64,000 nt of DNA, taken from contig JRNA01000010.1 in assembly GCA_000758905.1 (NCBI GenBank), forward strand, positions 1 through 64,000, written 5' to 3'. The notes beneath the pieces were generated by a model. It was not told where the DNA came from. It was given only the letters and a program-made list of their open reading frames with translations, and searched no databases. This document shows positions 15,486-43,652 of this stretch, piece by piece. Both the position numbers and the translations under genes were made by a program. This DNA comes from Clostridiales bacterium S5-A14a. GTDB lineage: Bacteria; Bacillota; Clostridia; Peptostreptococcales; Anaerovoracaceae. Position 1 is the stretch's first letter. Every line of letters starts with the position of its first letter.

Positions 15486-16586
15486 TTACAAAATAAATTT
15501 AAATACTGGTATATTTTTGATGCACCTAGTTATTATATAAGACAAGAATAAATTCAAAATAACTAAAAGCGGCAATATAACATAAATTGAATTATTGTTA
15601 ATTAACGTCTTTACAAAATCCATTGTCACAAATACACGTATGAAAATTATATGAATTAAGTAAATTCCAAAAGAGCAATCATCAATTTTTATTAAGAAGT
15701 ATGAAAACACTCTTTTTAGTTTTGAATTTGTAGTCACGGCTTTTTCAATCCTATTTTGTTCTTCCTGCCATTCTAAATTGTACGTGCTCCCCATTATTAA
15801 ATTGAACATTCCAATACTTTGAAGTATTACAAGAAACGAAGAATAACTCCAAAATACTTCAAGATTTTCATTGTTGTTTTCCCATCTAATAAATGTTAAA
15901 AACGATATCAAGGTTGTTGAAACAATGAATAATGCAACTCCTTTGTAGCGATCTATCTTCACTATTCCTTTATTCAAAACATATCCTACAAACATGTAGA
16001 ATGGGTATATTGTCAATTCATGTATGTAAAATCCGCTTGTAAATTTAAATGTTCCTATTGCAGGTATGATTGAAATAAAGATGATATAAATAATTAATAT
16101 GAATTTGATTTCTGTTTCGTGGCCTAACCTAACAAAAGCTCTGTACATAGGCATCATCAGATATAAACCGATTAACATGTAGAGATACCACATTGGACTA
16201 TAGGTTTTTCCCCTATACAAATTCTCAAAATATAATAAAATTTGATTAAATCCAAATGATTGATGATTTATGAATATGTCGATGACTTGATAAATAGCAA
16301 TAAATATAGCAATGGCTATAAATATCCTTGCTATATATTTTTTTATTAACTTTTTAAGCGGAAGATCCTTTTGGGGATTTAAATTAAGAACTCCTGTAAC
16401 CATCAAAAAAATTGGAACTGCCCACATGGAACAGTTCACAAATAGTCTTAAGATAATATTGTCATCCGTACTGAATTTAAAGGTTGTACTCAAAATAAAT
16501 CCAGTATGTAGGACAATTATTGCAATAGTTGCTAGTGAACGACAATAAGAGAGTCCAAAATTTTTCTTAGTTAAACATTGCGTCAT
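15486..16586 (-). CDS. Acyltransferase 3 family membrane protein
   Basis: A 366-residue polytopic protein with about ten membrane helices and the acyltransferase-3 N-terminal pattern (YCRSLATIAIIVLHTGF, with the conserved His near residue 27). Family members O-acetylate or acylate cell-wall and surface glycans at the outer membrane face. It overlaps the preceding lipoprotein gene by 20 nt and has GAGGGG before its ATG, so it closes the choline/surface operon. Its target could be peptidoglycan or the polysaccharide made by the neighbouring locus; this is inference. Confidence 0.85.
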   Translation of the reverse strand: MTQCLTKKNFGLSYCRSLATIAIIVLHTGFILSTTFKFSTDDNIILRLFVNCSMWAVPIFLMVTGVLNLNPQKDLPLKKLIKKYIARIFIAIAIFIAIYQVIDIFINHQSFGFNQILLYFENLYRGKTYSPMWYLYMLIGLYLMMPMYRAFVRLGHETEIKFILIIYIIFISIIPAIGTFKFTSGFYIHELTIYPFYMFVGYVLNKGIVKIDRYKGVALFIVSTTLISFLTFIRWENNNENLEVFWSYSSFLVILQSIGMFNLIMGSTYNLEWQEEQNRIEKAVTTNSKLKRVFSYFLIKIDDCSFGIYLIHIIFIRVFVTMDFVKTLINNNSIYVILPLLVILNLFLSYIITRCIKNIPVFKFIL

Positions 16587-16938
16587 TTAGACACCCCTCT
16601 TGATTTCCACCCTGAGCTGGCGCTTGTTCCTGATTTGGTGCTGCCTGCTCAGATGGTTGCTGAGGTTGAGATGCCGGTTGCTGGCTGCCTTGTGACCCCT
16701 GTGTCGTTTGATTTTGAGCAGGAGCAGTTGATTCTTCTGGTTTCTCGGAGTCTTGCTTCTTCTCCTTATCACCCTCCTTAGAGTCTTTGGGTTTTGATTT
16801 TTCCTCAACCTGAGTTTTGTTTTTCTCTTTTGATTCATCCTTATCATCTTTGCTACCACAAGATATTAATGCAAGTGACAATATGCAAATCATCAGTATA
16901 GAAACTATTATTTTTAAATCAAACTTTATATTTTTCAT
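16567..16938 (-). CDS. Short low-complexity lipoprotein
   Basis: A 123-residue protein with a signal peptide and a lipobox (LISC, cysteine near residue 27). The whole mature part is low complexity: a Lys/Glu/Asp-rich stretch (about 30-68), then a Gln/Pro/Ala/Ser-rich stretch, ending in EGCLNDAMFN. No folded domain can be recognised, so it looks like the lipid anchor and spacer of a lipoprotein whose functional domain was lost, or a simple wall spacer. Two cysteines are present, one at the lipid site and one near the end. It overlaps the acyltransferase gene. AAAGGGA precedes the ATG. Confidence 0.7.
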   Translation of the reverse strand: MKNIKFDLKIIVSILMICILSLALISCGSKDDKDESKEKNKTQVEEKSKPKDSKEGDKEKKQDSEKPEESTAPAQNQTTQGSQGSQQPASQPQQPSEQAAPNQEQAPAQGGNQEGCLNDAMFN

Positions 16939-16950
16939 CGAATATTCCCT

Positions 16951-18216
16951 TTATAAATTCATATATTGGTTTTTAGATAATATATACTTTAGTGTTCCCC
17001 TTTGTCCATATGTGCTTCCATAGATAGTTCTGCCAGTTTCCTTTAAAATATCCGGATCATAAATGTATGTATTTCCGTTCATACGAATCTCACACCAGGA
17101 GTGAGCCCATACCTTATAGCGGCCCTGGTGAAATCCCGAAACCTGATATACATCATATCCCAAAGCAGATGCCATATAATAAAATGTCGACGCCATTGTA
17201 TAGCAGTTTCCACTTCTCTGATTAAAACCAACATTTGCAAAATATGAAATGCCATTGCTTGCATCCGTAGTCATATTTCTATAAGTAATTGCGGAACCAG
17301 ACCATTTATATGCCTCCCACAGAGAATATCCAACCTGCTTTAAAATAGAGTTCGCACTTTCCATAGCCTCAATTTGTGGCCTGTATGAATTATACTCTGC
17401 CCAGCTTATTAAGCCATTGCTGTCAGGATTGAGGGTTACATTCTTGATATATTGAAATGGAGTTGTTTTCAACGCTCCATCGTATCCTACATACTGCACA
17501 CCATCGCCAGACTGGATCATCTTATTACTTTCCATCGCTCCGTTTGAATGCAAAAAGTATGATTTCCCGTCAACGTTTTGCCAGCCCGTTGCCATAACGC
17601 CAGTCTCAGGATCAAGGTAATACCAGGTTCTGCCTACTTTGATCCAACCAGTTGCCCTGGCTCCTGAGCCATTAAAGTAATACCAAGAACCATCTATATA
17701 ACTCCAACCTGTTTGCATTGCTCCGTTGGAATATAAATAGTACCACGTATTACCAACTTGCTTAAAGCCCGTTGCCATCACACCTGTCTCTGGATCAAGG
17801 TAATACCAAGTTCCGCCAGTTTTAAGCCATCCTGTCACTCTGGCTCCTGAATTATTAAAATAATACCAAGAGCCATCTATATAATTCCAGCCTGTTTGCA
17901 TTGCTCCACTGGAATTCAAATAGTACCACGCATTTCCAACTTGCCTAAAGCCAGTTGCCATCACACCTGTCTCAGGATCAAGATAATACCAGGTTCCGCT
18001 AGCTTTAAGCCAGCCTGTAATCTTGGCTCCTGAGCTATTAAAGTAATACCAAGAGTCATCCATATAATTCCAGCCTGCCTTAACATCCTGATTTTGCGAA
18101 AGCTCCTGAGAATTGCTTGTACCATATGAATTATTTGCTTCATTAAAATAGATTAAAGGCATTAGTATGACAAGACATATTAAAATTAATCTAACCCTTT
18201 TAGAAAAACACTCCAT
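16951..18216 (-). CDS. Choline-binding protein with transglutaminase-like domain
   Basis: A secreted 421-residue protein. Residues 1-27 form a signal peptide. Residues 49-231 are choline/cell-wall-binding repeats (WYYLD, WYYFN, GxMxTGW patterns), organised as three 61-residue super-repeats. Residues about 260-421 are a transglutaminase-like cysteine-protease domain with a plausible triad Cys338 (RSGNCYTM), His372 (WAHSWCEI) and Asp387 (YIYDPD). Such domains are thought to act as peptidases or cross-linkers at the cell wall. The repeats would hold it on phosphocholine-bearing polymer, which the adjacent lic genes could make. An AAGAGG site precedes the start. Confidence 0.88.
   Translation of the reverse strand: MECFSKRVRLILICLVILMPLIYFNEANNSYGTSNSQELSQNQDVKAGWNYMDDSWYYFNSSGAKITGWLKASGTWYYLDPETGVMATGFRQVGNAWYYLNSSGAMQTGWNYIDGSWYYFNNSGARVTGWLKTGGTWYYLDPETGVMATGFKQVGNTWYYLYSNGAMQTGWSYIDGSWYYFNGSGARATGWIKVGRTWYYLDPETGVMATGWQNVDGKSYFLHSNGAMESNKMIQSGDGVQYVGYDGALKTTPFQYIKNVTLNPDSNGLISWAEYNSYRPQIEAMESANSILKQVGYSLWEAYKWSGSAITYRNMTTDASNGISYFANVGFNQRSGNCYTMASTFYYMASALGYDVYQVSGFHQGRYKVWAHSWCEIRMNGNTYIYDPDILKETGRTIYGSTYGQRGTLKYILSKNQYMNL
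17524..18072 (-). repeat. Three 183-bp tandem repeats coding choline-binding modules
   Basis: Three successive units of 183 bp (61 codons each) encode residues 49-109, 110-170 and 171-231 of the transglutaminase-like protein. Each unit holds three roughly 20-residue modules. Similarity is high at DNA level, so recombinational gain or loss of units is likely. Confidence 0.85.
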
Positions 18217-18268
18217 ATTAACCTCTTATTTTTATTTGGGAACCGGATAAGTCCAAAATAAATATATT

Positions 18269-19921
18269 TTACTGAAAATTATCAAACATAACATTCATAT
18301 CGACATTTCCCCTGATTCCAGGCACTGAACCCTTGGAACTATACTGCCAATATTTGTACTGTCCTCTGTAGGTAGGCTTATAGTAGTATTGTGCAAGCCA
18401 AAGAGGGTAATTATAAACGATCTGTGCATCATGAACACGTGTAGAAAGTTCACTCGGATTAGAATAAAATCCCGCGGTATAACCTGCATTCCTAACTTCG
18501 CTTAAGAAAGCATGTGCAACCTTTGTCATCTGATCTCTTCCAGTTGAAACGGTTCGTCCCGTATATCCATTCCCATCTCGCCAAACAACTTCCATATCCA
18601 TAAAGATTGGAAGATCTAGACTGTATTTTCTAGCCTGGTTTATAGCCATCCTTGCTTCTTCTCTTGCTTCATCTTCAGTAATAGCCTGCGAGAAATGGTA
18701 TATACCAACCTTTAAACCAGCATTCTTTGCACGCCTCATAAAATCATCATATTTGCGATCTAAAAATTTTCGTCCTTCAGCACCATAACCAGTACAGGAA
18801 GATCTAACAATCACATAGTCTACACCAGATTTCTTAACCTGATTGAAGTCATAAACATCATTATGTGAAGATATGTCTATTCCAACACTTGATGCCAGAT
18901 ACCCATTGCTGTCAAAATAATATCTATATCCGTTTATATCTTTAAACCCTTTCGCAAGCCCATACTTAGTAACATACACCCTTCTGCCGTTTCTTGTTGA
19001 CCATCCTTCGTTACCTGAAGAATAGGATTGTGAATTTGAAGATTGAACCCATGCACCTGAACTATTAACAAAATAGTTTCCTATCCATTTATTACTAGCC
19101 ATAGATCCGTCAGATTCAAAATAATACCATGTCCCACCAATTTGACTCCATGTATTTTGAAGCATTGCACCTGAGGAATTCATCCAGTACCATCTTCCTC
19201 CAGACTTTAGCCAACCGGTTTCCATTGAACCTGAGGAATTCAGGAAATACCATCTTCCTCCAGTATTTAGCCAGCCGGTTTGCATCGCACCTGAGGAATT
19301 CGTGTAATACCATCTTCCCCCTGACTTAATCCATCCAGTTTCCAGTGCTCCATATGAATTTAAATAATACCATCTACCTCCACTATTTAACCACCCGGTT
19401 CTCATAGTCCCATCAGAGTTTACAAAATACCATCTACCTCCATGTGAAAGCCATGTGTTCCTCAGCATTGCTCCCGATGAATTCATGTAGTACCAGTCAC
19501 TTCCATCCCATTGCCATCCGGTTCTCATATATCCATAATTATCGAAATAATAATATGTGCCATTGATTCGCACTAATCCATTCCGAGCGTAAGATCCGCC
19601 GTTTCCATACCACCAGCCATATTCATTCCTATACCAATTCCCTACCAGCCAGTGGCCAGATTTTGTTACATACCAGCCATCAACAATTTCATCTGAAGCC
19701 ATTTCTCCATTATAATTGAAATAATAGTATTTCCCACCTATGTTATACCAATTATTGGAAGCCATTGTCCCATTCATATAATAGTACCATGTCCCAAATT
19801 GATAGACCCATCCGTTCTGATTGCTATATCCATGCACATTCTCTAATAAACTTTGATGGATACCTAATGATGAAAGAAAAGCGCAAACTAACAGAATTGT
19901 TAATACTCTTTTAAGACTCAT
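18269..19921 (-). CDS. Choline-binding GH25 lysozyme
   Basis: A secreted 550-residue muramidase. A signal peptide (about 1-25) is followed by a dozen or so cell-wall-binding repeats (about 35-300), a linker, and a C-terminal GH25 domain (about 345-550). Catalytic residues fit the family: Asp349 in GIDISSH and the MDME pair (Asp442, Glu444). It would cleave the MurNAc-GlcNAc bond during wall turnover or autolysis. The module order (binding first, catalysis last) is the reverse of pneumococcal LytC-like or Cpl-1-like GH25 enzymes. Its ATG overlaps the end of the BCCT transporter gene by 11 nt, so the two are translationally coupled. Confidence 0.93.
   Translation of the reverse strand: MSLKRVLTILLVCAFLSSLGIHQSLLENVHGYSNQNGWVYQFGTWYYYMNGTMASNNWYNIGGKYYYFNYNGEMASDEIVDGWYVTKSGHWLVGNWYRNEYGWWYGNGGSYARNGLVRINGTYYYFDNYGYMRTGWQWDGSDWYYMNSSGAMLRNTWLSHGGRWYFVNSDGTMRTGWLNSGGRWYYLNSYGALETGWIKSGGRWYYTNSSGAMQTGWLNTGGRWYFLNSSGSMETGWLKSGGRWYWMNSSGAMLQNTWSQIGGTWYYFESDGSMASNKWIGNYFVNSSGAWVQSSNSQSYSSGNEGWSTRNGRRVYVTKYGLAKGFKDINGYRYYFDSNGYLASSVGIDISSHNDVYDFNQVKKSGVDYVIVRSSCTGYGAEGRKFLDRKYDDFMRRAKNAGLKVGIYHFSQAITEDEAREEARMAINQARKYSLDLPIFMDMEVVWRDGNGYTGRTVSTGRDQMTKVAHAFLSEVRNAGYTAGFYSNPSELSTRVHDAQIVYNYPLWLAQYYYKPTYRGQYKYWQYSSKGSVPGIRGNVDMNVMFDNFQ
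19022..19819 (-). repeat. Cell-wall-binding repeats of the GH25 lysozyme
   Basis: Degenerate repeats of about 60 bp (20 residues, GGRWYYLNSSG-type) cover residues 35-300. Five consecutive units at about 19180-19440 are the most alike, suggesting recent expansion. Confidence 0.85.
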
Positions 19922-21446
19922 TCCTCATACTCCTATTTTTATTTGCTTCAATGTATTCTTTAGCATCTTTAAAGAAACTTATTACAATTAAAAACATAAT
20001 TAAACCTATTGGAAAAGCTGCGATAATACTCACTGATTGGAGATTGTTCAAGCTGCTTTGCGAAAAAACAAGTGCAATAGGTAAAACTATTAACAGTATA
20101 CACCATAGCAATTGTATAGTAAAGTGCGGATGTTCTTCCTCAGATAGTTGATAATAACTGTAACAAGCTGCCGTATATGCAATCGAATCAAATGATGTTG
20201 CATAGAAAGCTATCATTGTAAAAAGGATTACAAGGAACAAAATATCTGAATTAGGCATGGTTTCTATTATTGATATAATAATTTTGTATAAATCATCCCC
20301 ACTTTCATACATTCCGATAAAATCCTTTATGCCATTCACCTGCATTCCAAGTGAGTAGTTTCCTAGAACTATGAAACTGACAATCGTAGATCCTACACCG
20401 AATATATATCCCCCAATTACAACTTCTCTAATTGTCCTTCCTTTTGATATATTACCAATGAAAAATGGAGCTGCGACACACCAAACCATCCAGTATGCCC
20501 AGTAATATATAGTCCAGTCTTGAGGGAAATTGTTTTGTCGCAAAGGATCGGTATGTGTTGATAATGAGATGAAATTTTGGACTGTTCTGCCTAGCGATTC
20601 AAGCCCTGTGTCAATAATGTATTTTGTGCTGCCAGCAAATAATAATACATATAATATCAATCCAAAAAACATATATATGCATGCCTTCGCTAGGATGTTT
20701 ATTCCCTTAAAGCCGTGAATCAGAGCGTATGTATATATCGCACATGTTATTATTAGAATAATAATAGTTATACTTGTTCTGCTAAGACTGATATTGAATA
20801 TACTCGAAACTATTTCTGCAATCAATGGAGTTGCAACGCTGAAAGTTGTTGCGGTACCTGCTAAAAGCGCAAATACTGAGAGCAAATCAATTATTTTTCC
20901 AGGGATGCCATCAGAATATTTACCTAGTAGTGGTCTACAAGCCTCCGAGAATTTTTTGCGATTCCTCTTCCTTACGTGAAGCATAAATCCGAATGAGACT
21001 GCAAGCACCAGATAGAATGACCAAGGTATGAAACTCCAATGAAAAATTGGGAAGACCCCAGACCATTCCTGAATTGATCCCAATGATTTAATATAGTCGT
21101 TTGATCCATACATAATCCATTCTGAGAATGAGTAAAACAAAATATCAGCGGCTAGGCCACAGGTAAACATCATGCTCCCCCATGAGAAGAATGAATATGC
21201 AGGTTTCTCGTTTGGACTTCCAAGAACAATGTCCCCATACTTTGAAAATATTAATACAAGAGATGCCGTGAAAAAAATTATTCCTATTACTAGGTAATAC
21301 GCACCAAATGTATCGCCAAAGAAAAATCTAACCTTAGACAAAGCATCATTCGATGTTTTTGGAGATGCAAGAAATATTGTGCTCAGTATCACAATTGTCA
21401 CAAGTGGCAATATAGTTGTCAACCAGTCAATTTTTTTCCTAATCAT
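19911..21446 (-). CDS. BCCT-family choline/betaine-type transporter
   Basis: A 511-residue secondary transporter with about 12 membrane helices. The BCCT signature region is present as YYWAYWMVWCVAAPFFIG followed by ISKGRTIREVV. Family members import quaternary ammonium compounds such as choline, betaine or carnitine. Context points to choline, since choline kinase and cytidylyltransferase genes precede it. I chose the ATG at 21446, with GGGAGA 7 nt upstream and an 8-nt overlap with the preceding gene, over a TTG 36 nt earlier. It takes the place held by the DMT-type permease LicB in Haemophilus and pneumococcus. Confidence 0.9.
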   Translation of the reverse strand: MIRKKIDWLTTILPLVTIVILSTIFLASPKTSNDALSKVRFFFGDTFGAYYLVIGIIFFTASLVLIFSKYGDIVLGSPNEKPAYSFFSWGSMMFTCGLAADILFYSFSEWIMYGSNDYIKSLGSIQEWSGVFPIFHWSFIPWSFYLVLAVSFGFMLHVRKRNRKKFSEACRPLLGKYSDGIPGKIIDLLSVFALLAGTATTFSVATPLIAEIVSSIFNISLSRTSITIIILIITCAIYTYALIHGFKGINILAKACIYMFFGLILYVLLFAGSTKYIIDTGLESLGRTVQNFISLSTHTDPLRQNNFPQDWTIYYWAYWMVWCVAAPFFIGNISKGRTIREVVIGGYIFGVGSTIVSFIVLGNYSLGMQVNGIKDFIGMYESGDDLYKIIISIIETMPNSDILFLVILFTMIAFYATSFDSIAYTAACYSYYQLSEEEHPHFTIQLLWCILLIVLPIALVFSQSSLNNLQSVSIIAAFPIGLIMFLIVISFFKDAKEYIEANKNRSMRNES

Positions 21447-22164
21447 GAATTTCTCCCGTATATTTTGCATATTTTTTGTCAATTTCTGCTAGTTCTTCAA
21501 TGCTGTCAATTTCCATCATATCGCCACTATTTATTCTATGTATATTTAAGTCAAATTCATCTGGATATAAAAATATTGGGATGTCGTCCCAGTAAATATC
21601 ATGGTTCTGCTTATCTTCAAATTCTATTTCCAGAAATTTCTTTAGTTTTTTCCCATCTTCCGCATTCCATCTTGAGGCACTATATAATCTCCAGCCTTTA
21701 TCAGCGCCCTCCCTCTTACATCCGATTATTTTGTTGTCGTCTACATCCAATATCCATTCATTAGTGAATTCTGATATTTTTTCAGCATTGTATCCGGATT
21801 TTTCGAAGAATGGCGACAGTGCATCCTTGCTTTTTATAATCTGATCAGCGTCCAAAATAATTGAATTCTCAACATATTCACGAGCCACATATAGCGAAGA
21901 GATATTATTGCATGAATCGTAGTAAGGGTTTTCAATAAATTTAAGATTTTGATATTTTGAATTTAACATATGAAACTTTTCTTTTAAATAGCCAGTTACA
22001 ATATAAATATCGTCTATGCCATTTTCGTGGAGCGCGTCTATTATAGTTTCAATCATTCTTTTCCCATTAACCTCAACAAGGGCTTTGGGAGTATCTAAAG
22101 TAATTGGCCTCATCCTGCTACCAACACCTGCAGCCATAATTATTGCTCTTTCAATCTTATACAT
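21439..22164 (-). CDS. LicC-like nucleotidyltransferase
   Basis: A 241-residue sugar-nucleotidyltransferase-fold protein. The nucleotide-binding signature AAGVGSRMRPITLDTPK is at residues 11-27, and the acidic metal site ILDADQI near 100 is present. It resembles LicC, the CTP:phosphocholine cytidylyltransferase, and related enzymes for aminoethylphosphonate. Because the preceding gene already has a LicC-type domain, this one may use a different phospho-substrate or be the main phosphocholine enzyme. It overlaps the preceding gene by 8 nt and the BCCT gene by 8 nt. Both signatures look intact, so neither is an obvious dead copy. Confidence 0.85.
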   Translation of the reverse strand: MYKIERAIIMAAGVGSRMRPITLDTPKALVEVNGKRMIETIIDALHENGIDDIYIVTGYLKEKFHMLNSKYQNLKFIENPYYDSCNNISSLYVAREYVENSIILDADQIIKSKDALSPFFEKSGYNAEKISEFTNEWILDVDDNKIIGCKREGADKGWRLYSASRWNAEDGKKLKKFLEIEFEDKQNHDIYWDDIPIFLYPDEFDLNIHRINSGDMMEIDSIEELAEIDKKYAKYTGEIHD

Positions 22165-23959
22165 AATATTTTTCCATTTCTTTTTTTGCTAATTTATAAT
22201 AGTCCCTCGCATATCTATATTGTCTCAATGAATATTCACCAAACTCAACACCTATGTGGCGTTTATACTCGCACCAGTTGCTCCAGAGAAGTCCACAGGC
22301 TGCAATATAGCAATATATCTTGATTCTCTCAATTTGTGTGCATCCATTAACAAAATACAAATCTATAAAATGATCGATTTCTTCTTCGTCATACATTGCA
22401 TATATACAAAACATCGCTATGTCAACGAGAGGGTCTTGCATTGCTGCATACTCCCAATCGATAAGATATACATTATCAGATTCATCTATAATAAAATTAT
22501 CAGGATTGGCATCGATGTGGCAGAGAGAAAACTCATCAGTATTATCATCAATGAAATCCTTAAGTCTGAATACATTCTCTTTTGTTTCCTCATAATTTTT
22601 GAAAATCGAACTCTCCTGCCCCCATAAGTCCTCATAAAAATTTATATTATCAAAAATCGAAAAAAAATTATCAACCGTATAATCGGAGTTATGCAATTTC
22701 CGAATAACGTCCAAACACATATTCAGATCTCGATCAGACTTGCTGTCACAGTTTCGAGAATTATGTATATATTCAGTTATCTTATAACCATTATCTGGAT
22801 TAATATAAAGCAGGTTATCTGAGATTTTGAGCGGCCTTATTTTTTGATATATATTTGCCTCTGATTCCCTATCTATCAGATTTTCAGTGCCTTCGCCTGG
22901 GATTCTCATAATGTAATCTTTATTATTTACAGAAAACTTAAAAGATCTATTTGTCATCCCCTTTTTCAATATTCTAATATTCTTTATATCTTGTGATCTT
23001 ACGCCAAAGGTTTCCTTAATCACTTCTATCGCATCATCTTTTAGATTATATGAATCTCTATCAAGATCTCTCAATTGTTCGTATGTATTAATTTCCGCAA
23101 CGACATTTCTATCTATAATCTTTGCTGGGAGTAGAAATTTATCCCCATCATACATTGCTTCTTCCCAAAAGCAGTTTAATAGTTGGTTTTTCTCAACAAA
23201 ATATTTGATTTTTTCCACAAAATATTTTGAAACATCAAAATTAACATATGCAACACCAGCTGGCCACACATGTTTCCCATTTTTAAAATCTTTTTTTATT
23301 TCATTTTTTCTATTGACTCTCAGATTTCTTTTGGTATAACTTCTACTTTGAATTGGATTGCGTAAATCGCTCTGAGATTCAATGCTATCCAAGTTTTCTA
23401 CCATATACCATGAATTAATTTCAATCTCATTAAACGGATTATCCGCAAACCAAAGGTCGCATGGGACTATATATGTGTTTGAGATAAAATTTCTAGCCAG
23501 ATATAGAGAGTAGATGTTATTAAATCTGCTATAATCTTCATTTATTATTAAATTTACGCCATATTCGTCTATCAGATATTCGTATTCTTCCTTCATGAAA
23601 CCTACAACAATATCAATCTCCGATACGCCAACATCTCTAAGTTGCTTAATTATCCTCTCTATAAGTGGTTCTCCATGGATTTCAAGCAGCCCCTTCGGCG
23701 TCTGAGTATTGATTGGAACCATCCTCATCCCAATACCTGCTGCTAGAATGATTGCATTCCTAGGTTTAGAAGATTTTATTAAATCCTTAGTCTTTTGTGT
23801 TGGATTCAATTCATCGTCAAGATAATTTTCTTGAGCAAGTGCTTTGATGGATTTATTTACACTTCCTATTGAAATGCCAGCTCCCTCTGATATTACACGC
23901 TGATTTGTTTCCTTTTTTTCGATGATAAATTTTAGTACTTTAGTTTCGTTTGTGTTCAC
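22157..23959 (-). CDS. Winged helix + LicC + LicA fusion protein
   Basis: A 600-residue, three-part protein. Residues 1-60 are a winged-helix DNA-binding-type domain (ISEGAGISIGSVNKSIKAL). Residues 67-290 are a nucleotidyltransferase with signature AAGIGMRMVPINTQTPKG. Residues about 310-600 are a choline-kinase/APH-fold kinase with HIDANPDN (481-488) and DWEYA (501-505). It should phosphorylate choline and activate phosphocholine to CDP-choline. A LicCA fusion is known from Treponema denticola. The start is GTG, after AAGGGGCGG. It is the first gene of the operon running down to 15486. The HTH may let the enzyme sense choline and control its own operon; this is inference. Confidence 0.88.
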   Translation of the reverse strand: MNTNETKVLKFIIEKKETNQRVISEGAGISIGSVNKSIKALAQENYLDDELNPTQKTKDLIKSSKPRNAIILAAGIGMRMVPINTQTPKGLLEIHGEPLIERIIKQLRDVGVSEIDIVVGFMKEEYEYLIDEYGVNLIINEDYSRFNNIYSLYLARNFISNTYIVPCDLWFADNPFNEIEINSWYMVENLDSIESQSDLRNPIQSRSYTKRNLRVNRKNEIKKDFKNGKHVWPAGVAYVNFDVSKYFVEKIKYFVEKNQLLNCFWEEAMYDGDKFLLPAKIIDRNVVAEINTYEQLRDLDRDSYNLKDDAIEVIKETFGVRSQDIKNIRILKKGMTNRSFKFSVNNKDYIMRIPGEGTENLIDRESEANIYQKIRPLKISDNLLYINPDNGYKITEYIHNSRNCDSKSDRDLNMCLDVIRKLHNSDYTVDNFFSIFDNINFYEDLWGQESSIFKNYEETKENVFRLKDFIDDNTDEFSLCHIDANPDNFIIDESDNVYLIDWEYAAMQDPLVDIAMFCIYAMYDEEEIDHFIDLYFVNGCTQIERIKIYCYIAACGLLWSNWCEYKRHIGVEFGEYSLRQYRYARDYYKLAKKEMEKYYV

Positions 23960-23979
23960 AAAAACCGCCCCTTACAACT

Positions 23980-24011
23980 TTCACGAAATTAGTTTTTTTG
24001 CTTTACGTGAA
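23980..24011. promoter_or_regulatory. Inverted repeat (operator candidate) at the lic operon start
   Basis: TTCACG (23980-23985) and CGTGAA (24006-24011) are perfect arms 20 nt apart. The outer arm covers the predicted transcription start and the whole repeat lies between the -10 box and the ribosome site. This is the normal place for a repressor site; the winged helix of the first gene product is a candidate binder. Confidence 0.5.
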
Positions 24012-24013
24012 CA

Positions 24014-24042
24014 ATGATATGCCTACATGCGTATTTTGTCAA
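24014..24042 (-). promoter_or_regulatory. Promoter of the choline/lic operon
   Basis: On the minus strand a perfect TTGACA, a 17-nt spacer and TATCAT. It is the best promoter in the region and sits 55 nt before the GTG start of the fusion gene. Confidence 0.8.
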
Positions 24043-24096
24043 GGGTAAAATTTATTTTTATACTAGCCATTTATTTTTCAGAGATATTTAACTAAT

Positions 24097-25826
24097 TCAA
24101 CTTGCAAGCATTGATCCATTTTCATTGAATCTATAAATTTTGTTTCCTTCACTCAAGTCATCGGTTCTCATTGATCCATCAGAATTCAAGTAATACCACT
24201 CTCCTCCGCTTTTGACCCAACCTGTTCTCATCGAACCATTTGAATTCATAAAGTACCAATCATCTCCATCTTTAACCCAACCAGTTCTCATATCACCACT
24301 TATACTCATATAATACCAAGCCGAGCCAGACTTTATCCATCCTGTTGCCATAGAACCATCTTCACCAAGGTAATACCAAGCACCCCCAGACTTTATCCAA
24401 CCTGTTCTCATAGCACCATTTGAATTCATAAAATACCAAGTATCTCCATCCTTAACCCAGCCAGTCATCATAGCGCCATCTTCACCAAGATAATACCAAG
24501 TATTACCTTCTTTTACCCATCCGATTTTCATAGCGCCATCTTCACTGAGATAATACCAAGCACCCCCGTACTTTATCCAGCCTGTTTGCTTTAAACCATC
24601 TGAATTTAAATAGTACCATTTACCACTTGAAAATCTCCATCTTTCTCCTTGATAAGAACCAGATCCTGCTATCATACCACCACTAACTAATGATATTATT
24701 TTCTCGTAATAATTTCCATTTGAATATACCCCTACGAAGTTATGCTTAAAATTATTTGGTATATTATTTGTCAATTCATTATCTAATGCTATTACAACAG
24801 CATCTAATCCTGCATCACTCCCATCTCCTGCTGAAAATATTCTGGTTCCCTTATAAAGCTGTTTCTTGATTGAATTGAATGAGCATATTTCTTCATCCTT
24901 TTGAAAAGGATCCTTATTTAATGAAGAATATGAAAATTTATTTGGGCACAAAAGAATCTTTGCATCCAATATACTTATCCATTCTTGAGTATTGCTCCCC
25001 CAGTAACCATGATGATTTAGTGATGCTACATCCACTTTCCCAATTCTATGGGCATAATCACTTTCCCCATGCAAAAAGTCATCGAAATCTCCACCGATAA
25101 CTGCAGTTCTACCGTTACTAGCCTTAAGTTTCACAACAAGTGACATAGAATTGCATCATCAAAAGTACGGTTATGATGAGTGCTGAATGTATTATATATA
25201 GTTAACGTTGATGAGCCCAATCTTAAGGTTATTGGGTCAGATTGAAATTGGGTCGTAATTTTAGCGTTACATTTTTTAGCCGCATCTATAAGATTGTTAT
25301 AAACTATCTGGTTATCCCAGTGTCGTCTTGAATTTGAAATCATACTATCGCTATATTCTGTTATAATCACTTCTTTAGCAGGTATCGCATTTAAGACCTC
25401 ATCACCAGAACCTATATGGTCTGAATGTGCATGAGTACCAATATAATATATGAAATTATCTTTTGTAATTCCGATTCTTTTCATATATGAAATCACTCTA
25501 TCCTCAACGCCATAACCTGGACCAGTAACCCCTAAAATACCAGGGGTATAATCCTCGTCCTCACCAGAATCCACAACGGCAAATTCATTGTCGGATTCTA
25601 GAATGAAGGAGTTACCAGATGTTTTATTTGCAATCATGTGCACCTTTACCGGGGATTTTGTATTCAGATTATTTACTTCAACATAATTTGGGCCGTAATT
25701 AAAATGCTTTGAGTCAATAGCATACAAAGTAGTAGTTTTAAAATTGAATATAATATACATAAATACTGTTATTGTTAAAAAAAGTATAGTCTTAAATATA
25801 AATTTAGTCATATTTTTAAATATCAT
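24097..25826 (-). pseudogene. Pce/CbpE-like phosphorylcholine esterase, frameshifted
   Basis: Two overlapping frames form one protein. The upstream part (25131-25826) has a membrane/signal segment and the MBL zinc motif HAHSDHIGSGD. The downstream part (24097-25146) supplies the rest of the MBL domain (IGGDFDD and SLNHHG metal ligands) and then about nine choline-binding repeats. This is the layout of pneumococcal Pce (CbpE), which removes phosphocholine from teichoic acid. Adding one base near 25150 joins the frames as DANSMSLVVKL, with nothing missing. It is therefore a single-base deletion, a phase-variable or disabled gene, or a sequencing error. The start at 25826 has GGAGAG 8 nt upstream. 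Confidence 0.85.
24112..24648 (-). repeat. Choline-binding repeats of the Pce-like protein
   Basis: About nine 60-bp units coding 20-residue modules of the GWVKDGDTWYFMNSNGAMRT type. Neighbouring units are strongly alike at DNA level, favouring copy-number change. Confidence 0.85.
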
Positions 25827-25922
25827 AATAAATGCTCTCCAATATAGACATCTTTGATCATTAAATAAAATAATACTTGCACCAAATAATATTACAAACC
25901 GAGTTGGCATGAGTATACATAA

Positions 25923-26777
25923 TCATTTGCAATATTTATTCCCCTTGTACACTTTATACGGTGAATCCAAGTCTATGAATTCATATGCATGATGATTTTC
26001 CCTTTTTTCAAGCGGTGGTAACATCATGTAATCTCCAAAGGCTTTGGTTAAATATCTATTATAACCTTCTGGTATTGGTAATTGCGTATCCTCAAATTCA
26101 ACATAAACAGCATTGTCGAAAATATCCTTATCATAATCGTTTTTCATGTAATGCGGCCCGGCACATAACTCTGTAATGTAATTACAATTTTTTTCCTTAT
26201 ATTTTGACATCTGTTTTTCCGCAAATTTTGCTATTTTGTATCTAGCTCTCATCGACGGAACGACGCCAAGAAGAATATTCCCGATTGTTTTAATCAAGTT
26301 ACCATGATTTAGTGGTGCCCTGCTCACAGAGTATATTGAAAAAATAATAGCCCAAAACATCTGGATTTTGCGTTTTATTCCTTGGGGGGCATAATCCAAT
26401 GGGAAAATGTCCATGGCTACACCCTGAGATACATCCCTATCGTGAAAACCTGTTTTTATATAGGTCGTATTTTTATCATGAATAGTTAAAATCGTACTAT
26501 AGGCTGGTTTATCTAATCGATTGTACTGTATCTCATAATCTTCAGTGTCCTTCCATAGGTATTTTAATTTTTCAAAATCCTCTCTCATCATGAAGATATC
26601 AACATCATCATCCCATGGTATAAAACCCTTATGCCTTATTGCGCCTATGCAACATCCTCCACATAAGAAATATTTCAAATTATTTTTTTTACAAAATAAA
26701 TCGAAACATTTTACCATTTCTAGTCCAATCTGTTGCATTCTCATAGTATTTTTTTCTGAGATTTCGTATTTTGTCAT
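25923..26777 (-). CDS. LicD-family phosphotransferase (first copy)
   Basis: A 284-residue LicD protein with the family signature IRHKGFIPWDDDVDIFM (about 47-63), which binds metal and CDP-substrate. LicD enzymes move phosphocholine (or a related phosphoalcohol) from CDP-choline to a sugar of a surface polymer at the cytoplasmic membrane. It follows a glycosyltransferase with an ATGA overlap and is upstream of the Pce-like gene. A run of eight A bases on the sense strand (26683-26690) lies about 90 nt inside the gene and could cause slippage. Confidence 0.88.
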   Translation of the reverse strand: MTKYEISEKNTMRMQQIGLEMVKCFDLFCKKNNLKYFLCGGCCIGAIRHKGFIPWDDDVDIFMMREDFEKLKYLWKDTEDYEIQYNRLDKPAYSTILTIHDKNTTYIKTGFHDRDVSQGVAMDIFPLDYAPQGIKRKIQMFWAIIFSIYSVSRAPLNHGNLIKTIGNILLGVVPSMRARYKIAKFAEKQMSKYKEKNCNYITELCAGPHYMKNDYDKDIFDNAVYVEFEDTQLPIPEGYNRYLTKAFGDYMMLPPLEKRENHHAYEFIDLDSPYKVYKGNKYCK

Positions 26778-27772
26778 TTCAAATTCCTTTTATTATTGAA
26801 CTTAACTGATTTAAATATTCCCACAAGTGACCCTACACCATATGAAATGTGAAATACTGGGAACAAAATAAATAAGACAAAAAATTGATAGAACTCTTTT
26901 GTAAGTTTAAGAGAATAGAATAGATCAATAATTAAATAAAGTAATAATATTCCCATTCCAATTTTGCCAAGCATGCTGCTAATTAAGTATGCTATGGGAA
27001 TACCTAGCACTCCTAGGGTGAAAGCTAATGGTATAAAATGTCTTGCTCCCATAGAACCAGGGATTTTCTTCGCAGAAATCACAGTCCAGTAACCATTGTC
27101 AAATGCCATCTTTGCTATGCCTGAAATTGTTTCTCTGCAGTAATACGTGAAGAAAATGTCGTTGGACAAAAATATTTTGCCACCACTCTTCCTAATCCTA
27201 TAATTTATCTCATTATCTTCATTCCTAACTAAGGACTCTTCGAATAGGCCAATTTTCTCAAACAAATCTTTTTTAAATGTCCCAAATGGGACAGTATCAA
27301 CATATCCGCTATTTTGTGATATACGAAACTGTGAATTTCCTACCCCAAAAGGGCATGTTAACATCTTAGCTATACACCTGCCAACCCTAGTAAACGCCTT
27401 TGTTTTAGCCATTCCGCCCACATTGTCGGCTCCGCTTTCTTTGATCCAGTAAATGCATTTGCTTACATAATCTTTGCTATACTCAGAGTGTGCATCCAAT
27501 CTGATTATATATTCATTCCTTGCAAAGTCGATTCCAATATTCATTGCACTTGATGCAATTTTTTTCGGATTATCTAACAAAAAAATCAATTGAGGGAATC
27601 GATTTTTATATTCAGAAATAATTTTAGTTGTTTGGTCGCTTGATCCCCCATCAACAAAAATCCATTCCATCAGATCCTTTGGATAATCTTGTTTAAACAT
27701 CGAATCAATGCACTGCCTTATATATTTTTCTTCATTCAAAGTCGGAATGATAACCGATACTGTACTGTCCAT
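26774..27772 (-). CDS. Family 2 glycosyltransferase
   Basis: A 332-residue GT-A fold enzyme with the start VSVIIPTLNEEKYI, the nucleotide-binding FVDGGSSDQT and a DAH at the position of the DxD metal motif. The last 80 residues hold two to three membrane helices that anchor it. It should add one sugar to the lipid-linked repeat unit; the sugar cannot be told. It overlaps the first licD by 4 nt, so the acceptor it makes may be what that LicD decorates. Confidence 0.85.
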   Translation of the reverse strand: MDSTVSVIIPTLNEEKYIRQCIDSMFKQDYPKDLMEWIFVDGGSSDQTTKIISEYKNRFPQLIFLLDNPKKIASSAMNIGIDFARNEYIIRLDAHSEYSKDYVSKCIYWIKESGADNVGGMAKTKAFTRVGRCIAKMLTCPFGVGNSQFRISQNSGYVDTVPFGTFKKDLFEKIGLFEESLVRNEDNEINYRIRKSGGKIFLSNDIFFTYYCRETISGIAKMAFDNGYWTVISAKKIPGSMGARHFIPLAFTLGVLGIPIAYLISSMLGKIGMGILLLYLIIDLFYSLKLTKEFYQFFVLFILFPVFHISYGVGSLVGIFKSVKFNNKRNLK

Positions 27773-27801
27773 CCAATTACCCTCTTATTTCAATACGCCC
27801 A

Positions 27802-28869
27802 TTATACCATTTGTGATATTTTATCATCAATCTTATATAGCAAAGTGTTGATCCTGCAAAGCTCAAACAATTTTATCCTAAGTTTATCAATGAATGCGGA
27901 AAGAATAACAAATGCAAACGAAAATGCTATAACTATCAATATCATAAATGGTGCACTCAATTTTAAAGTAAACTTAAATGCATCAAGCATAACGTGATGA
28001 TATGAGTAATAATTTGTATTTATTAAATATGCAGCAAATACATTGCCTGATATTAGGTTTATATATTTTGTATATTTCTCTTTTATCCTAAGCTTACTGA
28101 ATATAACTAGATATGCTATAGCGATTGAAAAAATTGTAGGCGAAGTATAGTTCACAAAAGAAGTCTTATTTACACTTAATCTGCTGAATTCAATATCAAA
28201 TCCGTATTTTATATATAATAATGTAAAAACAAACGAAAATATAGCAAAATATATAACATATCGAGATTTTATATATTTCCCTACATTACACTTTTTAACT
28301 ATGCCTCCTATAATATAGCATATTAATAACCAAAACACAGAATAACCTTCGGCTAGATTAAAAATTGGAGTAATGGTCCCGTATATTGAGAAAAACATGA
28401 AAAGTATGAACATCAAAATCATCGCTTGTCTATTACTCATCGCCCTTACTCCTGCATCTACTAATGGAGCTAAGGCCATTACGCCCGAGAAGGCAGTAAA
28501 ATACCAATATGCATTGGTTGTTATAGGAAAGAACATAGACCAGATTCCCTCGTTTGGAACGCTCTTAGTTAAAATCAAAATAGCAGCAACTACTACATTG
28601 TAGAAAACAACCTGTAACCAAAGTTTTAAATAAGAAGAGATTTTAAAACTATATATTTTACTATCATTATATTTAACATAACCAGATATTAAACCAAAAA
28701 TATTTACAGCACAAAATGCGAAAACTTCCAATGCATACGCTGCATAGGAATTATATGAGCCCGTTTTAGAATTAAACAAAATACCTCCCTGGCTCAATGT
28801 ATGCAAAATAATAACATACGTCATCGATATAATTCTTAGTAATTCTATGCCCTGATTTTTATTCTTCAT
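27802..28869 (-). CDS. Acyltransferase 3 family membrane protein
   Basis: A 355-residue polytopic protein with about ten helices and the family start GIELLRIISMTYVIILHTL (conserved His near residue 22). It probably O-acetylates a sugar of the polysaccharide repeat unit. I prefer the ATG at 28869 to an upstream TTG at 28893. GGGAG stands about 14 nt before that ATG, a long spacer, so the exact start is open. Placed between the two licD genes. Confidence 0.82.
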   Translation of the reverse strand: MKNKNQGIELLRIISMTYVIILHTLSQGGILFNSKTGSYNSYAAYALEVFAFCAVNIFGLISGYVKYNDSKIYSFKISSYLKLWLQVVFYNVVVAAILILTKSVPNEGIWSMFFPITTNAYWYFTAFSGVMALAPLVDAGVRAMSNRQAMILMFILFMFFSIYGTITPIFNLAEGYSVFWLLICYIIGGIVKKCNVGKYIKSRYVIYFAIFSFVFTLLYIKYGFDIEFSRLSVNKTSFVNYTSPTIFSIAIAYLVIFSKLRIKEKYTKYINLISGNVFAAYLINTNYYSYHHVMLDAFKFTLKLSAPFMILIVIAFSFAFVILSAFIDKLRIKLFELCRINTLLYKIDDKISQMV

Positions 28870-28937
28870 ACAATATATTTGGGCTCCCTTCAAATAAATC
28901 TATTATTGAACACATTTTGAACTTATTATGAAAATCT

Positions 28938-29750
28938 TTATATGAATTCTACTTCTACCGCATTATGCTGATACCGCTCTTCCTCTGGTGGCAACTTCAT
29001 ATAATCATCGCCATATGTAATTTCAAGATATTCATGTATATTTTTAGATATTCTAAATTTGTTTCCTTCAAATTCAATATCCTCAGTTTCAAGGATGCGG
29101 ACAGGATATAAATAATATTTTCCCATTCCAAAAGAAAATGAGGTTGTCAGGAATGTATCATCGCAAAACTCATTATATTTAATACATTCCTTATTAAAAC
29201 GTTCAAATAATTTGTCCCGAGGTTTCATGTGTAAAAGCAAATACCTAATATATCTTCCCAAGGATCTTATTTTGTACGAAATAGTTTTTTGGGGCATTGA
29301 TGCGAGGCTTGGAACTCCCCATTCGTATATTTCATATCTTAGTTTACTCATAAACTTATATCGTTCTTTTGCGCCCTCTCTTGGCAAAAAATCATACGGA
29401 AAGATATCAACAAAAATACCCTGATGCATTTTTATTTTTTTTGTTGCAGATTCCACGTATTTTGTGTTATTTTTTCTAACTTTTGCATATGTAAGAAAGT
29501 AATTCGGCTCTGATTCAGGGATCTGCAAAAAATATTTAGAGTTTAGTTCTTCCCTCGCAACAGTTATAAATTTTTCATAATCTTCTCTAGGCATGCCAAT
29601 ATCTGCATCGTCATCCCATGGTATAAAACCTTTATGCCTTATGGCACCTAAAGCTGTGCCTCCATCCAAAAAATAATTTATATTATGTTTGCGGCATATT
29701 CTATCAACTTCTATTATAATTTCTAATAAATTTTCTTGTAATCTGTTCAT
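28938..29750 (-). CDS. LicD-family phosphotransferase (second copy)
   Basis: A 270-residue LicD protein with the signature IRHKGFIPWDDDADIGM near residue 37. It differs clearly from the first copy outside the signature, so it is a paralogue with its own acceptor rather than a recent duplicate. Pneumococcus likewise uses two LicD proteins to place two phosphocholines per repeat. It overlaps galE by 4 nt. Confidence 0.88.
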   Translation of the reverse strand: MNRLQENLLEIIIEVDRICRKHNINYFLDGGTALGAIRHKGFIPWDDDADIGMPREDYEKFITVAREELNSKYFLQIPESEPNYFLTYAKVRKNNTKYVESATKKIKMHQGIFVDIFPYDFLPREGAKERYKFMSKLRYEIYEWGVPSLASMPQKTISYKIRSLGRYIRYLLLHMKPRDKLFERFNKECIKYNEFCDDTFLTTSFSFGMGKYYLYPVRILETEDIEFEGNKFRISKNIHEYLEITYGDDYMKLPPEEERYQHNAVEVEFI

Positions 29751-30766
29751 ACTCTCTCATCTTGAAACATCATTTTTTCAAAATTCCATGTATCCCTACA
29801 TATATCTTCAATCCCATATCTAGGTCCCCAATTTAGTATTTGATTTGCTTTTTTTATATCTGCGTAGCTTATTGCAATATCTCCAGCTCGTCTTTCACTA
29901 AATTTTTTATTTATCTTGATATTATTTGTGCTTTCAAATGCCTTAACTATCTCTAAAACAGAATATCCATTGCCTGATCCTAAATTAATTGCATCGAAGC
30001 CATTATTTTTTAAAGCATATTCAATGGCTTTAACATGACCATCGGCTAAATCGCATACATGAATAAAATCTCTAATACACGTGCCATCTCTAGTATCATA
30101 ATCATTTCCATAAATATTTAAAACCTCATATTTACCTGATGCAACTCCAGATATATATGGCATTAAATTATTTGGAACCCCTCTTGGAATTTCTCCTATT
30201 AGGCCTGATGGATGGGCACCTACAGGGTTAAAATATCTCAATGCAATTGCTGAAAATTCCGGATTTGAGACTGTTATATCCTTAAGGATTTCTTCAGTCA
30301 TTTGCTTACTTCTGCCGTAAGGATTGGTGCAGGTCCCCATATTCATATTTTCTATCAACGGAGATATATTCTCTATCCCATATACTGTTGCCGATGAGCT
30401 AAAAACAAGATTTCTACATCCTGTCTTATTCATTGCATCAATCAATCGAATAAGGCAGTTTAAATTGTTATCATAATATTCTATTGGTGATTTTATTGAA
30501 TCATATACTGACTTATATCCCGCAAAGTGTATTACTGCTTCAACATTCTGCTTCAAAATCTCAATCAAAAGGCCCTCGTCTCGTGCATCTCCAAAATAAA
30601 ATTTTGGCATGACCTTTGTTATTTTTTTAAGTTTTTCAAGCACATCTTTTCTGGAATTGCTAAGATTATCTAAGATAACAACATCGTAGCCTGACTCAAT
30701 AAGCGAAACAGCTGTATGTGAACCTATATACCCTAATCCACCAGTTAATAGAATTTTCTTGCTCAT
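29747..30766 (-). CDS. galE: UDP-glucose 4-epimerase
   Basis: A 339-residue extended short-chain dehydrogenase. The NAD motif GGLGYIGSHT is at residues 9-18, the SSSATVYG segment and the YGRSK catalytic Tyr-x-x-x-Lys are present, and the C-terminus has the RAGDIAISYADI segment typical of GalE. It interconverts UDP-Glc and UDP-Gal (or the N-acetyl forms) and would supply galactose or GalNAc to the polymer. AAGGGA precedes the ATG. Confidence 0.93.
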   Translation of the reverse strand: MSKKILLTGGLGYIGSHTAVSLIESGYDVVILDNLSNSRKDVLEKLKKITKVMPKFYFGDARDEGLLIEILKQNVEAVIHFAGYKSVYDSIKSPIEYYDNNLNCLIRLIDAMNKTGCRNLVFSSSATVYGIENISPLIENMNMGTCTNPYGRSKQMTEEILKDITVSNPEFSAIALRYFNPVGAHPSGLIGEIPRGVPNNLMPYISGVASGKYEVLNIYGNDYDTRDGTCIRDFIHVCDLADGHVKAIEYALKNNGFDAINLGSGNGYSVLEIVKAFESTNNIKINKKFSERRAGDIAISYADIKKANQILNWGPRYGIEDICRDTWNFEKMMFQDERV

Positions 30767-30779
30767 TTTAGAATTTCCC

Positions 30780-31373
30780 TTATGCTTCTGAAGTTATATA
30801 TTGTTTCCTGAATGCAAACATAACAATTACTATACCTGCCAAGAAGCCTATAGCAATCCCCTTTTTCGTATGATTACTTCGTTCTGCTGTTTGGCTCTCG
30901 GATAATCTTGCATCTTCAATTACAATAGCTTCTGTATTTTGATCTATTTCATTAATTTTTTTAACAGCAATATCTTGAATTGTTGACACAATCTCTACTG
31001 CTTTTTCACGACTATTGTCACTAATGGATATTTTTATTATCCTAGAGTTAGTCACGTTTTCGACATTATATTTACTGCTTAAATCAGAAACGCTCATATC
31101 TAGATCTAGCTTCTGAATCGTAGATTCTAATACGTTTCTGCTTTTGATAATCTCTAAACAATCTTGGATATTCAAGTCTAAGTTTTGTTTATTGTCAGAT
31201 TCTTTCGAATGGCTAACATATATGCTCGATGTTGCGCTTGCACCTATGGTTTTGGCTCCAAATATACTTTGTAAATAGCCTGCACCACCTAATACAATTG
31301 CGCACAATACAATAATCCAGATTTTTTTAATCATGACTTTAATAAATGCGCTTACATTAATACTTTTATTCAT
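30780..31373 (-). CDS. Wzz/CpsC-type chain-length protein
   Basis: A 197-residue protein with a membrane helix near each end (about 12-30 and 167-187) and an extracytoplasmic coiled region between them, the plan of polysaccharide co-polymerases. The N-terminal Wzz segment (VSAFIKVMIKKIWIIVL) is clear. It would set polymer length together with the neighbouring polymerase. The cytoplasmic tyrosine-kinase partner (CpsD) is not encoded in this window. AAGGAG stands 6 nt before the ATG. Confidence 0.82.
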   Translation of the reverse strand: MNKSINVSAFIKVMIKKIWIIVLCAIVLGGAGYLQSIFGAKTIGASATSSIYVSHSKESDNKQNLDLNIQDCLEIIKSRNVLESTIQKLDLDMSVSDLSSKYNVENVTNSRIIKISISDNSREKAVEIVSTIQDIAVKKINEIDQNTEAIVIEDARLSESQTAERSNHTKKGIAIGFLAGIVIVMFAFRKQYITSEA

Positions 31374-32820: not shown

Positions 32821-33897
32821 TTAAAAAGATTCTATAAGTTCTATCCATTTTGATGTTATCAATTCTTTAGAAAAATTATTAATCGTAATATCAGAGTTAT
32901 TTGATAGTTCAAGTCGTTTTTGGCCCGAAGTCATTAATATTTTCATTTTATTTTGAAATCCTTCTAGATCATTCGGTTTTACTAGGTATCCATTAACGCT
33001 ATCAGTAACTATCTCTCTTGGCCCAGTCAATATATCAAAACTTATAATAGGGAGTTTTGCTTCCTGCACTTCTAGGAGTATGAGCGGAAATCCCTCTCTC
33101 AACGATGGCATTACAAAAAAGGCATAGTCTTGAAATATTTTCTCTAAATTATTCTGCCATCCCATAAAATGAAAAGAACTATCTATATTTTCTTTGATTA
33201 CAAGTTGCTTTAATTTTCCTTTTTCAGGGCCATCCCCATAAAGGTCAATACTCCATTCTGGAAACTGTTCAGCTAGATTTGACCAGATTTTGATGAGAGT
33301 ATCAAAACCTTTTTCATAATTAAGTCTCCCTACAGCAAGTATTTTTCTTGAATCCATATCATAATCTTTATATTTATTTTTTAAGTCAATCCAATTAGGT
33401 ATAGTCACAATTTTGTTTTTTGAATATTTGAACTTTTTAATGTAGTCCCTTCTATTTCTTTCAGTTAAAGTAATAGTTTTATTTGTCAAAAAAGAACTTA
33501 AAAATCTGATAAAAACTATGTCTTTCCTCTCCCACTGACTCATCAGTGAGCCATGTTCATGAAAAACTAATTTCGCCTTAGAAGTAAATCTAAGCGTTGA
33601 TCCTATAAAGCCAGGATAATCCCCTTCGAGGAAAACAGCGTCTATATTATTATCATTAACATATTCCTTTAGAGGTTTTTTAAGTTCTTTCCTCATTACC
33701 GAAAGCCTTTTGGATTCATTTGACAAAGATACAACCTTAACCCCAGCAGCAAATGAGTATCTTATCTCATCATTTAAAAATAATGATATTATGTGTATTT
33801 CATATTTTTTTGCTAATTCATTAGCAACATTAACTACTACCTGGTTTAGTCCGCCCCAATCGGAAATGTTATATACAACGAATGCTATTTTCTTCAT
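32821..33897 (-). CDS. Family 4 glycosyltransferase
   Basis: A 358-residue GT-B fold enzyme. The C-terminal half shows AVGRLNYEKGFDTLI, DLYGDGPEKGKL and the PSLREGFPLILLEVQEAK (E-x7-E) motif of retaining GT4 enzymes. It probably transfers a hexose or HexNAc from a nucleotide sugar in the cytoplasm. It overlaps the preceding glycosyltransferase by 4 nt (ATGA). Confidence 0.88.
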   Translation of the reverse strand: MKKIAFVVYNISDWGGLNQVVVNVANELAKKYEIHIISLFLNDEIRYSFAAGVKVVSLSNESKRLSVMRKELKKPLKEYVNDNNIDAVFLEGDYPGFIGSTLRFTSKAKLVFHEHGSLMSQWERKDIVFIRFLSSFLTNKTITLTERNRRDYIKKFKYSKNKIVTIPNWIDLKNKYKDYDMDSRKILAVGRLNYEKGFDTLIKIWSNLAEQFPEWSIDLYGDGPEKGKLKQLVIKENIDSSFHFMGWQNNLEKIFQDYAFFVMPSLREGFPLILLEVQEAKLPIISFDILTGPREIVTDSVNGYLVKPNDLEGFQNKMKILMTSGQKRLELSNNSDITINNFSKELITSKWIELIESF

Positions 33898-42974: not shown

Positions 42975-42988
42975 ATCTCATCCTCAAA

Positions 42989-43651: not shown

Positions 43652-43652
43652 G

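Follow-up and report, generated by a model that had tools for sequence, protein, structure and literature searches.

A putative phosphocholine-decoration locus with a BCCT-family transporter in an exchangeable polysaccharide region of Clostridiales bacterium S5-A14a

Introduction

Most of what is known about glycan-bound phosphocholine comes from bacteria of the respiratory tract, in which it plays a part in mimicry of the host, in the binding of C-reactive protein and in the control of wall enzymes. In Treponema denticola, a LicC–LicA fusion (LicCA) reportedly serves phosphatidylcholine synthesis (Kent 2004, cited in PMC7368946). Lic-1 genes with the importer LicB have been described in streptococci, Gemella, Erysipelothrix, Haemophilus and others (PMC10434233, PMC7136413), and in Gemella the retained LicA, LicB, LicC, TarI and TarJ are at least 60% identical to those of pneumococcus (PMC7136413). 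A study of TacF assigned the phosphocholine-bearing species to a streptococcal cluster, with Bacillus and Clostridium described as having other teichoic acids (PMC13385700). In the open literature, of which coverage was incomplete, no direct description was found of clostridial or gut phosphocholine loci or of BCCT-linked lic genes, nor any paper on a locus combining BCCT linkage with two LicC-type enzymes. Here we describe a candidate locus of this kind in Clostridiales bacterium S5-A14a, contained in the first 64,000 nucleotides of contig JRNA01000010.1 (the window; G000:C10:1-64000). The genome (G000; 1.53 Mb, 19 contigs, 99.96% complete) was compared with a family set of 248 genomes and, for the BCCT transporter, with 391 genomes of the class; the evidence throughout is genomic.

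Results

The genes appear to form an exchangeable surface-polysaccharide locus making a phosphocholine-decorated, teichoic-acid-like polymer, a reading to which we assign a probability of roughly 0.8. That this is a real phosphocholine-decoration locus, and a variant of the known Lic systems, is well supported by the comparisons below. Profile searches of the window proteins confirmed the gene list (Table 1), and all genes of the locus lie on the minus strand. They are transcribed in the order PglF-like, aminotransferase, sugar-phosphate transferase, IspD-like/SDR (short-chain dehydrogenase/reductase) pair, Wzx, two glycosyltransferases, Wzy, Wzz, GalE, LicD2, acyltransferase, glycosyltransferase, LicD1 and Pce-like; then, after a gap of 137 bases (24096 to 23960), the fusion, separate LicC, BCCT, and the GH25 and transglutaminase-like choline-binding proteins. 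The initial annotation had named a BCCT importer, a second LicC-type enzyme, two LicD proteins and two further choline-binding-repeat proteins in two adjacent transcription units, and each of these was found. The units are 30766-24097 and 23959-16951, within which genes mostly overlap or are separated by gaps under ~60 bases. Given the gene order around the gap, the LicD genes are part of the polymer unit and not of the lic unit. A promoter-like site in the gap matches at 11/12, but shuffled sequences frequently contain sites of this kind as well.

Linkage of the BCCT gene (PF02028) was examined in both genome sets. The family search gave 13 close matches (at least 49% identity), all 13 in LicCA genomes (Fisher p 7e-20, indicative only). 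In the class search, eight genomes from other families also held a close match; LicA/LicC lay no more than 1.5 kb away in five of them and within ~6 kb in the other three. The clade is thus linked to LicA/LicC in 21 of the 21 genomes found via BCCT (13 in the family, 8 in other families), and the co-occurrence in related genomes that had been put forward as a check was borne out. No LicA/LicC lay within 1.5 kb of the 15 distant BCCT loci of the class search, and other BCCTs in the class are at most 35% identical. In G097, a distant BCCT (31%) lies beside a distant LicCA, so linkage extends beyond the close clade. Sequence alone does not fix choline as the BCCT substrate; linkage does better. 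No LicB was seen in the locus, where the BCCT gene takes its place (LicB was not searched for genome-wide), and because of this the locus, which would work like Lic-1, is not filed as a standard Lic-1 locus. Separately, in a relative without lic genes, a distant BCCT (29%) and a CoA-transferase-like neighbour share a polysaccharide locus (L087:5154-9159, G198:C2).

The kinase domain of the fusion matches LicA (4r77) at E 3e-38. In the predicted structure (mean predicted local distance difference test 87), the best folds for the two enzyme domains are LicA (4r77, template modelling score 0.87) and LicC (1jyk, 0.86), both by target length. Following the residue roles established for the LicA choline pocket (PMC4364537), four pocket aromatics are kept, Y504, W559, W562 and Y576, of which the first three are invariant in 19 homologues. 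In LicA numbering, the equivalents of Thr29, Asp176, Tyr197, Trp251, Trp254 and Tyr268 are kept, and Val178 is replaced by Asn. The N terminus is a helical domain in the predicted structure and is called HTH_24, a winged helix-turn-helix (HTH), by Pfam.

The separate LicC-type enzyme matches pneumococcal LicC along its full length and retains the T-N-E-W, S-x-W and Y-W-D motifs. When 25 separate and 18 fused nucleotidyltransferases were compared, T-x-E-W, common with pneumococcal LicC, was present in 23/25 separate and 0/18 fused sequences, and S-W-Y-[MA]-[VL] in 18/18 fused ones. By these motifs, the two are distinct subfamilies with different second halves, kept side by side; the second half of this fold is the acceptor side. 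The LicC–LicA fusion of the initial annotation therefore holds as a fused nucleotidyltransferase and kinase, but its nucleotidyltransferase half differs from LicC and its winged HTH had gone unmentioned. At L059 a kinase without the fused nucleotidyltransferase domain stands beside a separate LicC, an arrangement that points to the separate enzyme as the phosphocholine cytidylyltransferase. Of the LicC-type pair, one member may act on a different substrate. A tentative and rather unlikely extension is that the fused domain forms a second activation lane for another phosphorylated compound, or a sensor with the HTH, with CDP-choline synthesis left to the separate LicC; in that case two different phospho-substituents would be present on the polymer, added by the two LicD proteins and set by one choline-responsive regulator-enzyme. 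In one relative, the fusion is split into adjacent open reading frames (ORFs) for HTH-nucleotidyltransferase and kinase (L054:7983-9781, G161:C1).

Choline-binding repeat arrays (PF01473/PF19127) score above cut-off in three gene products of the window and far above chance (PF01473 totals of 116-165 bits per protein). Genome-wide, such repeats were found only in this locus and in one protein on another contig, an amidase beside phage holin and tail genes at a prophage end (L064:22-4451, equivalent to G000:C8:155021-159450). The repeats of this endolysin would presumably require choline on the host wall, which lends support, independent of the locus, to choline on the wall. At E 1e-5, repeats occur in 16 of the 248 genomes, 9 of them among the 15 LicCA genomes (p 6e-9).

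A homologue of the esterase Pce is present as had been proposed, but not as a single ORF. Its N-terminal piece, with THAHSDH, aligns with Pce residues 4-165 (first half of the catalytic domain), and its C-terminal piece with residues 189-249 plus repeats (second half of that domain). The two lie in different frames with a 16-base overlap, placing a frameshift inside the catalytic domain, and no one chain of the locus holds both metal-site halves of the metallo-beta-lactamase domain (HxHxDH lies in the N-terminal piece, the later domain part in the other). A sequencing error in the assembly is a possible cause. The alternative that the pieces are two genes was rejected: they correspond to separate portions of one Pce, and in G195 a single ORF of 588 residues covers the two in succession, aligning end to end across the break with identities of 54% and 42%. 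G132 encodes another intact Pce-like homologue, so intact versions occur in two relatives. Close homologues of the Pce N-domain were found in 3 of the 248 genomes, all three LicCA genomes. A metallo-beta-lactamase/choline-binding protein beside LicCA in G050 (L045) was considered as an intact orthologue and rejected, since its catalytic part differs; G195 and G132 are better comparisons.

Two genomes of the same genus, G136 and G171, share the flanks of the locus, with LPG synthase-like, PssA, Psd, PglF and DegT genes on one side and a gene for a Crp-type regulator at the opposite end, beyond which G171 has DeoC, trigger factor and ClpP. Between these flanks both carry different glycan genes, and no lic, LicD or close BCCT gene was found in either genome. 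Identity to the two relatives is 71-89% for PglF and DegT and falls to 54-68% at the sugar-phosphate transferase on the edge, and G+C drops to 0.30-0.35 across 22-38 kb. Because the flanks are the same and the contents differ, with this fall in identity and low G+C, the phosphocholine genes most likely travel within a serotype-like exchangeable cassette. The locus had been described as self-contained, which holds in the sense that relatives within the genus exchange 15.5-38.9 kb as one block. In G136, near a contig end, two fragments that match the C-terminal portion of the Crp-type regulator flank a 991-residue protein (L084:104-3079, G136:C66) that is phage-lysozyme-like with GH25 and weak choline-binding repeats.

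Acceptor and alternative assignments

Both LicD proteins (PF04991) carry the W-D-D-D-x-D motif and are the only two in the genome; their substrate role is predicted. Of 14 LicCA genomes, 12 have LicD (the other two are 70% and 78% complete), as against 0/4 same-genus genomes without LicCA. LicD2 groups with LicD of the LicCA genomes G060, G124, G132 and G161 (38-42% identity) and is the best candidate for the phosphocholine transferase. LicD1 is divergent and falls in a different branch, and one member of the LicD pair may act on a different substrate. We consider the chances about even that one LicD adds phosphocholine while the other, with the IspD-like/SDR pair, decorates the same repeat unit with a polyol phosphate of the ribitol or arabinitol type, giving two phosphate substituents. 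From its sequence, the pair could supply CDP-polyol for one LicD: a housekeeping IspD elsewhere in the genome makes the IspD-like protein additional, and the IspD-like, SDR and LicD trio recurs in the lic loci L042 and L047. The D-ribitol-5-phosphate cytidylyltransferase model gives the IspD-like protein 137 bits, but this is below the cut-off of 166, the SDR partner is not TarJ-like, and the substrate of a LicD protein is not readable from sequence. Neither TarI nor TarJ was seen in the locus, and a search for a CDP-arabinitol gene pair yielded nothing useful. Such a two-substituent polymer is compatible with, and not opposed to, phosphocholine decoration.

Several points weigh against the phosphocholine assignment itself. 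The pocket residue Glu213 of LicA is Tyr in the kinase domain, and LicD models do not separate phosphocholine from polyol-phosphate transferases. Among solved structures the BCCT protein is nearest in sequence to DddT, followed by CaiT, BetP and only then choline BetT, and none of the curated substrate models passes its cut-off on it (187 bits versus 695 for BetT). Species of the same genus that lack lic genes also have weak choline-binding repeats in GH25 proteins. The Fisher tests compare related genomes, and their p values thus overstate independence; the biochemistry and chemistry of the pathway are read from sequence. The nearness to DddT, and the occurrence of this repeat family in glucan-binding proteins and toxins, would suit a system for ethanolamine, betaine, dimethylsulfoniopropionate or another small phosphate whose repeats bind something else, for example glucan. 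We consider this unlikely, as the kinase pocket aromatics and the motifs of the separate LicC are kept, the BCCT clade is always beside LicA/LicC, and a Pce homologue is in the locus. It is very unlikely that phosphocholine goes onto a membrane glycolipid, as in Mycoplasma fermentans, and not onto a polysaccharide: the Mf1 diacylglycerol cholinephosphotransferase model gives the two LicD proteins 80-86 bits, but this is far under its cut-off of 225, their genes lie inside the Wzx/Wzy operon, and the repeat proteins and prophage endolysin indicate the wall. Phosphatidylcholine via a CDP-alcohol phosphotransferase is likewise unlikely, and a pathway of the T. denticola kind, with the wall-binding proteins unrelated, scarcely credible, because the genome encodes only two such enzymes (PssA-like in the window, and a strong match elsewhere that is probably PgsA), no dedicated CDP-alcohol-type cholinephosphotransferase was found in it, and the genes in question lie within a glycan locus that includes LicD. 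Genes for phosphatidylserine decarboxylase and synthase (window 42105-43675) adjoin the glycan locus, a position kept in same-genus genomes.

At the other end of the locus, a 123-residue ORF (16567-16938) without a family match above cut-off overlaps an acyltransferase gene (15486-16586).

Table 1. Predicted features of the locus, with coordinates in the window
Feature	Position	Strand	Evidence
Secreted protein, choline-binding repeats and transglutaminase-like domain	16951-18216	-	Choline_bind_3 E 7e-53, Choline_bind_1 E 1e-46, Transglut_core E 1e-5
Secreted protein, choline-binding repeats and GH25 muramidase domain	18269-19921	-	Glyco_hydro_25 E 8e-33, Choline_bind_3 E 3e-39
BCCT transporter, probable choline importer in LicB role	19911-21482	-	PF02028 E 1e-119, linkage
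Separate LicC-type enzyme, putative CTP:phosphocholine cytidylyltransferase	21439-22164	-	1jyk (LicC) residues 6-229, E 3e-35
Winged HTH, divergent LicC-fold nucleotidyltransferase and LicA-type choline kinase	22157-23959	-	Profiles, 4r77 and 1jyk fold matches
Pce-like esterase, C-terminal part (end of metallo-beta-lactamase domain, choline-binding repeats)	24097-25146	-	Pce 2bib residues 190-249, plus repeats
Pce-like esterase, N-terminal part (THAHSDH metal site)	25131-25910	-	Pce 1wra/2bib E 4e-21 to 1e-20
LicD1, LicD-family phosphotransferase, divergent	25923-26777	-	PF04991 E 2e-48
Family 2 glycosyltransferase	26774-27772	-	Profile match
Membrane acyltransferase (Acyl_transf_3)	27802-28893	-	Profile match
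LicD2, LicD-family phosphotransferase	28938-29750	-	PF04991 E 4e-44; orthologues in other lic-bearing genomes
GalE, UDP-glucose 4-epimerase	29747-30766	-	TIGR01179 406 bits, over cut-off
Wzz-type chain-length protein	30780-31373	-	Profile match
Wzy polymerase	31387-32796	-	PF14296 E 5e-75
Two glycosyltransferases (GT4, GT2)	32821-34889	-	Profile match
Wzx-like MOP flippase in TacF role	34886-36397	-	Weak MatE match E 4e-4; 41% identity to L046 homologue
Extended SDR and IspD-like cytidylyltransferase (37474-38190), probable CDP-polyol pair	36407-38190	-	Ribitol model 137 bits
Initiating sugar-phosphate transferase	38282-38965	-	Profile match; constant end of locus
DegT/PseC-like aminotransferase	38962-40167	-	Profile match; constant end of locus
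PglF-like 4,6-dehydratase	40195-42072	-	Profile match; constant end of locus

Discussion

In the pathway proposed here, the BCCT protein would import choline, the kinase domain of the fusion would convert it to phosphocholine, and the separate LicC-type enzyme would make CDP-choline. A LicD protein, most likely LicD2, would then move phosphocholine onto a sugar of the repeat unit before export, after which the Wzx-like flippase and Wzy polymerase would export and polymerise the decorated unit. If the polymer is attached to the wall and phosphocholine is displayed on the cells, the GH25 muramidase and the transglutaminase-like protein could dock on the exposed choline via their repeats, and a Pce-like esterase would trim it, although its gene is frameshifted in this assembly. 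The initial annotation had outlined uptake, activation, transfer to the neighbouring polymer and docking; this agrees with the conserved residues, the linkage and the prophage endolysin, and as a whole is partly supported. Its description of the system as complete was too strong, given the frameshifted eraser, the LicB and TarI/TarJ genes not seen in the locus, and the LicC-type enzyme and LicD that may each serve another substrate.

If the proposed assignment is true, a linked version with its own importer clade exists in several clostridial families, which would give more organisms to examine for phosphocholine, and the BCCT clade next to LicA/LicC would be a genome marker for them. The locus would also be a second case, outside streptococci, for the control of wall hydrolases by polymer choline, and a case of decoration exchange between related species.

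Set against the lic1/lic2 system of Streptococcus pneumoniae, the locus has in common a LicA-type kinase, a LicC-type cytidylyltransferase, two LicD proteins, a flippase of the multidrug/oligosaccharidyl-lipid/polysaccharide (MOP) type, a Pce-like esterase, a GH25 choline-binding muramidase and aminosugar initiation genes. It differs in having BCCT instead of LicB in the locus, an HTH-nucleotidyltransferase-kinase fusion plus a separate LicC, an IspD-like/SDR pair instead of TarI/TarJ, and Wzz/Wzy in the same operon; here, moreover, everything lies in one exchangeable locus and the Pce gene is frameshifted. With T. denticola LicCA it shares the reported joining of LicC and LicA in one protein; it differs by the additional HTH and by the presence of a second LicC and of linked LicD and polysaccharide genes, and no cholinephosphotransferase was found. 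The transporter is of the same BCCT family as DddT, CaiT, BetP and BetT, and in alignment has the motifs FHW..PW..Y and YWaYW, which, going by BetP, would be the transport-site aromatics; unlike those proteins, its close homologues (at least 49%) form a lic-linked clade. As in Gemella (PMC7136413), choline decoration and choline-binding proteins would occur together in a firmicute outside Streptococcus, here with a different importer and a different fusion.

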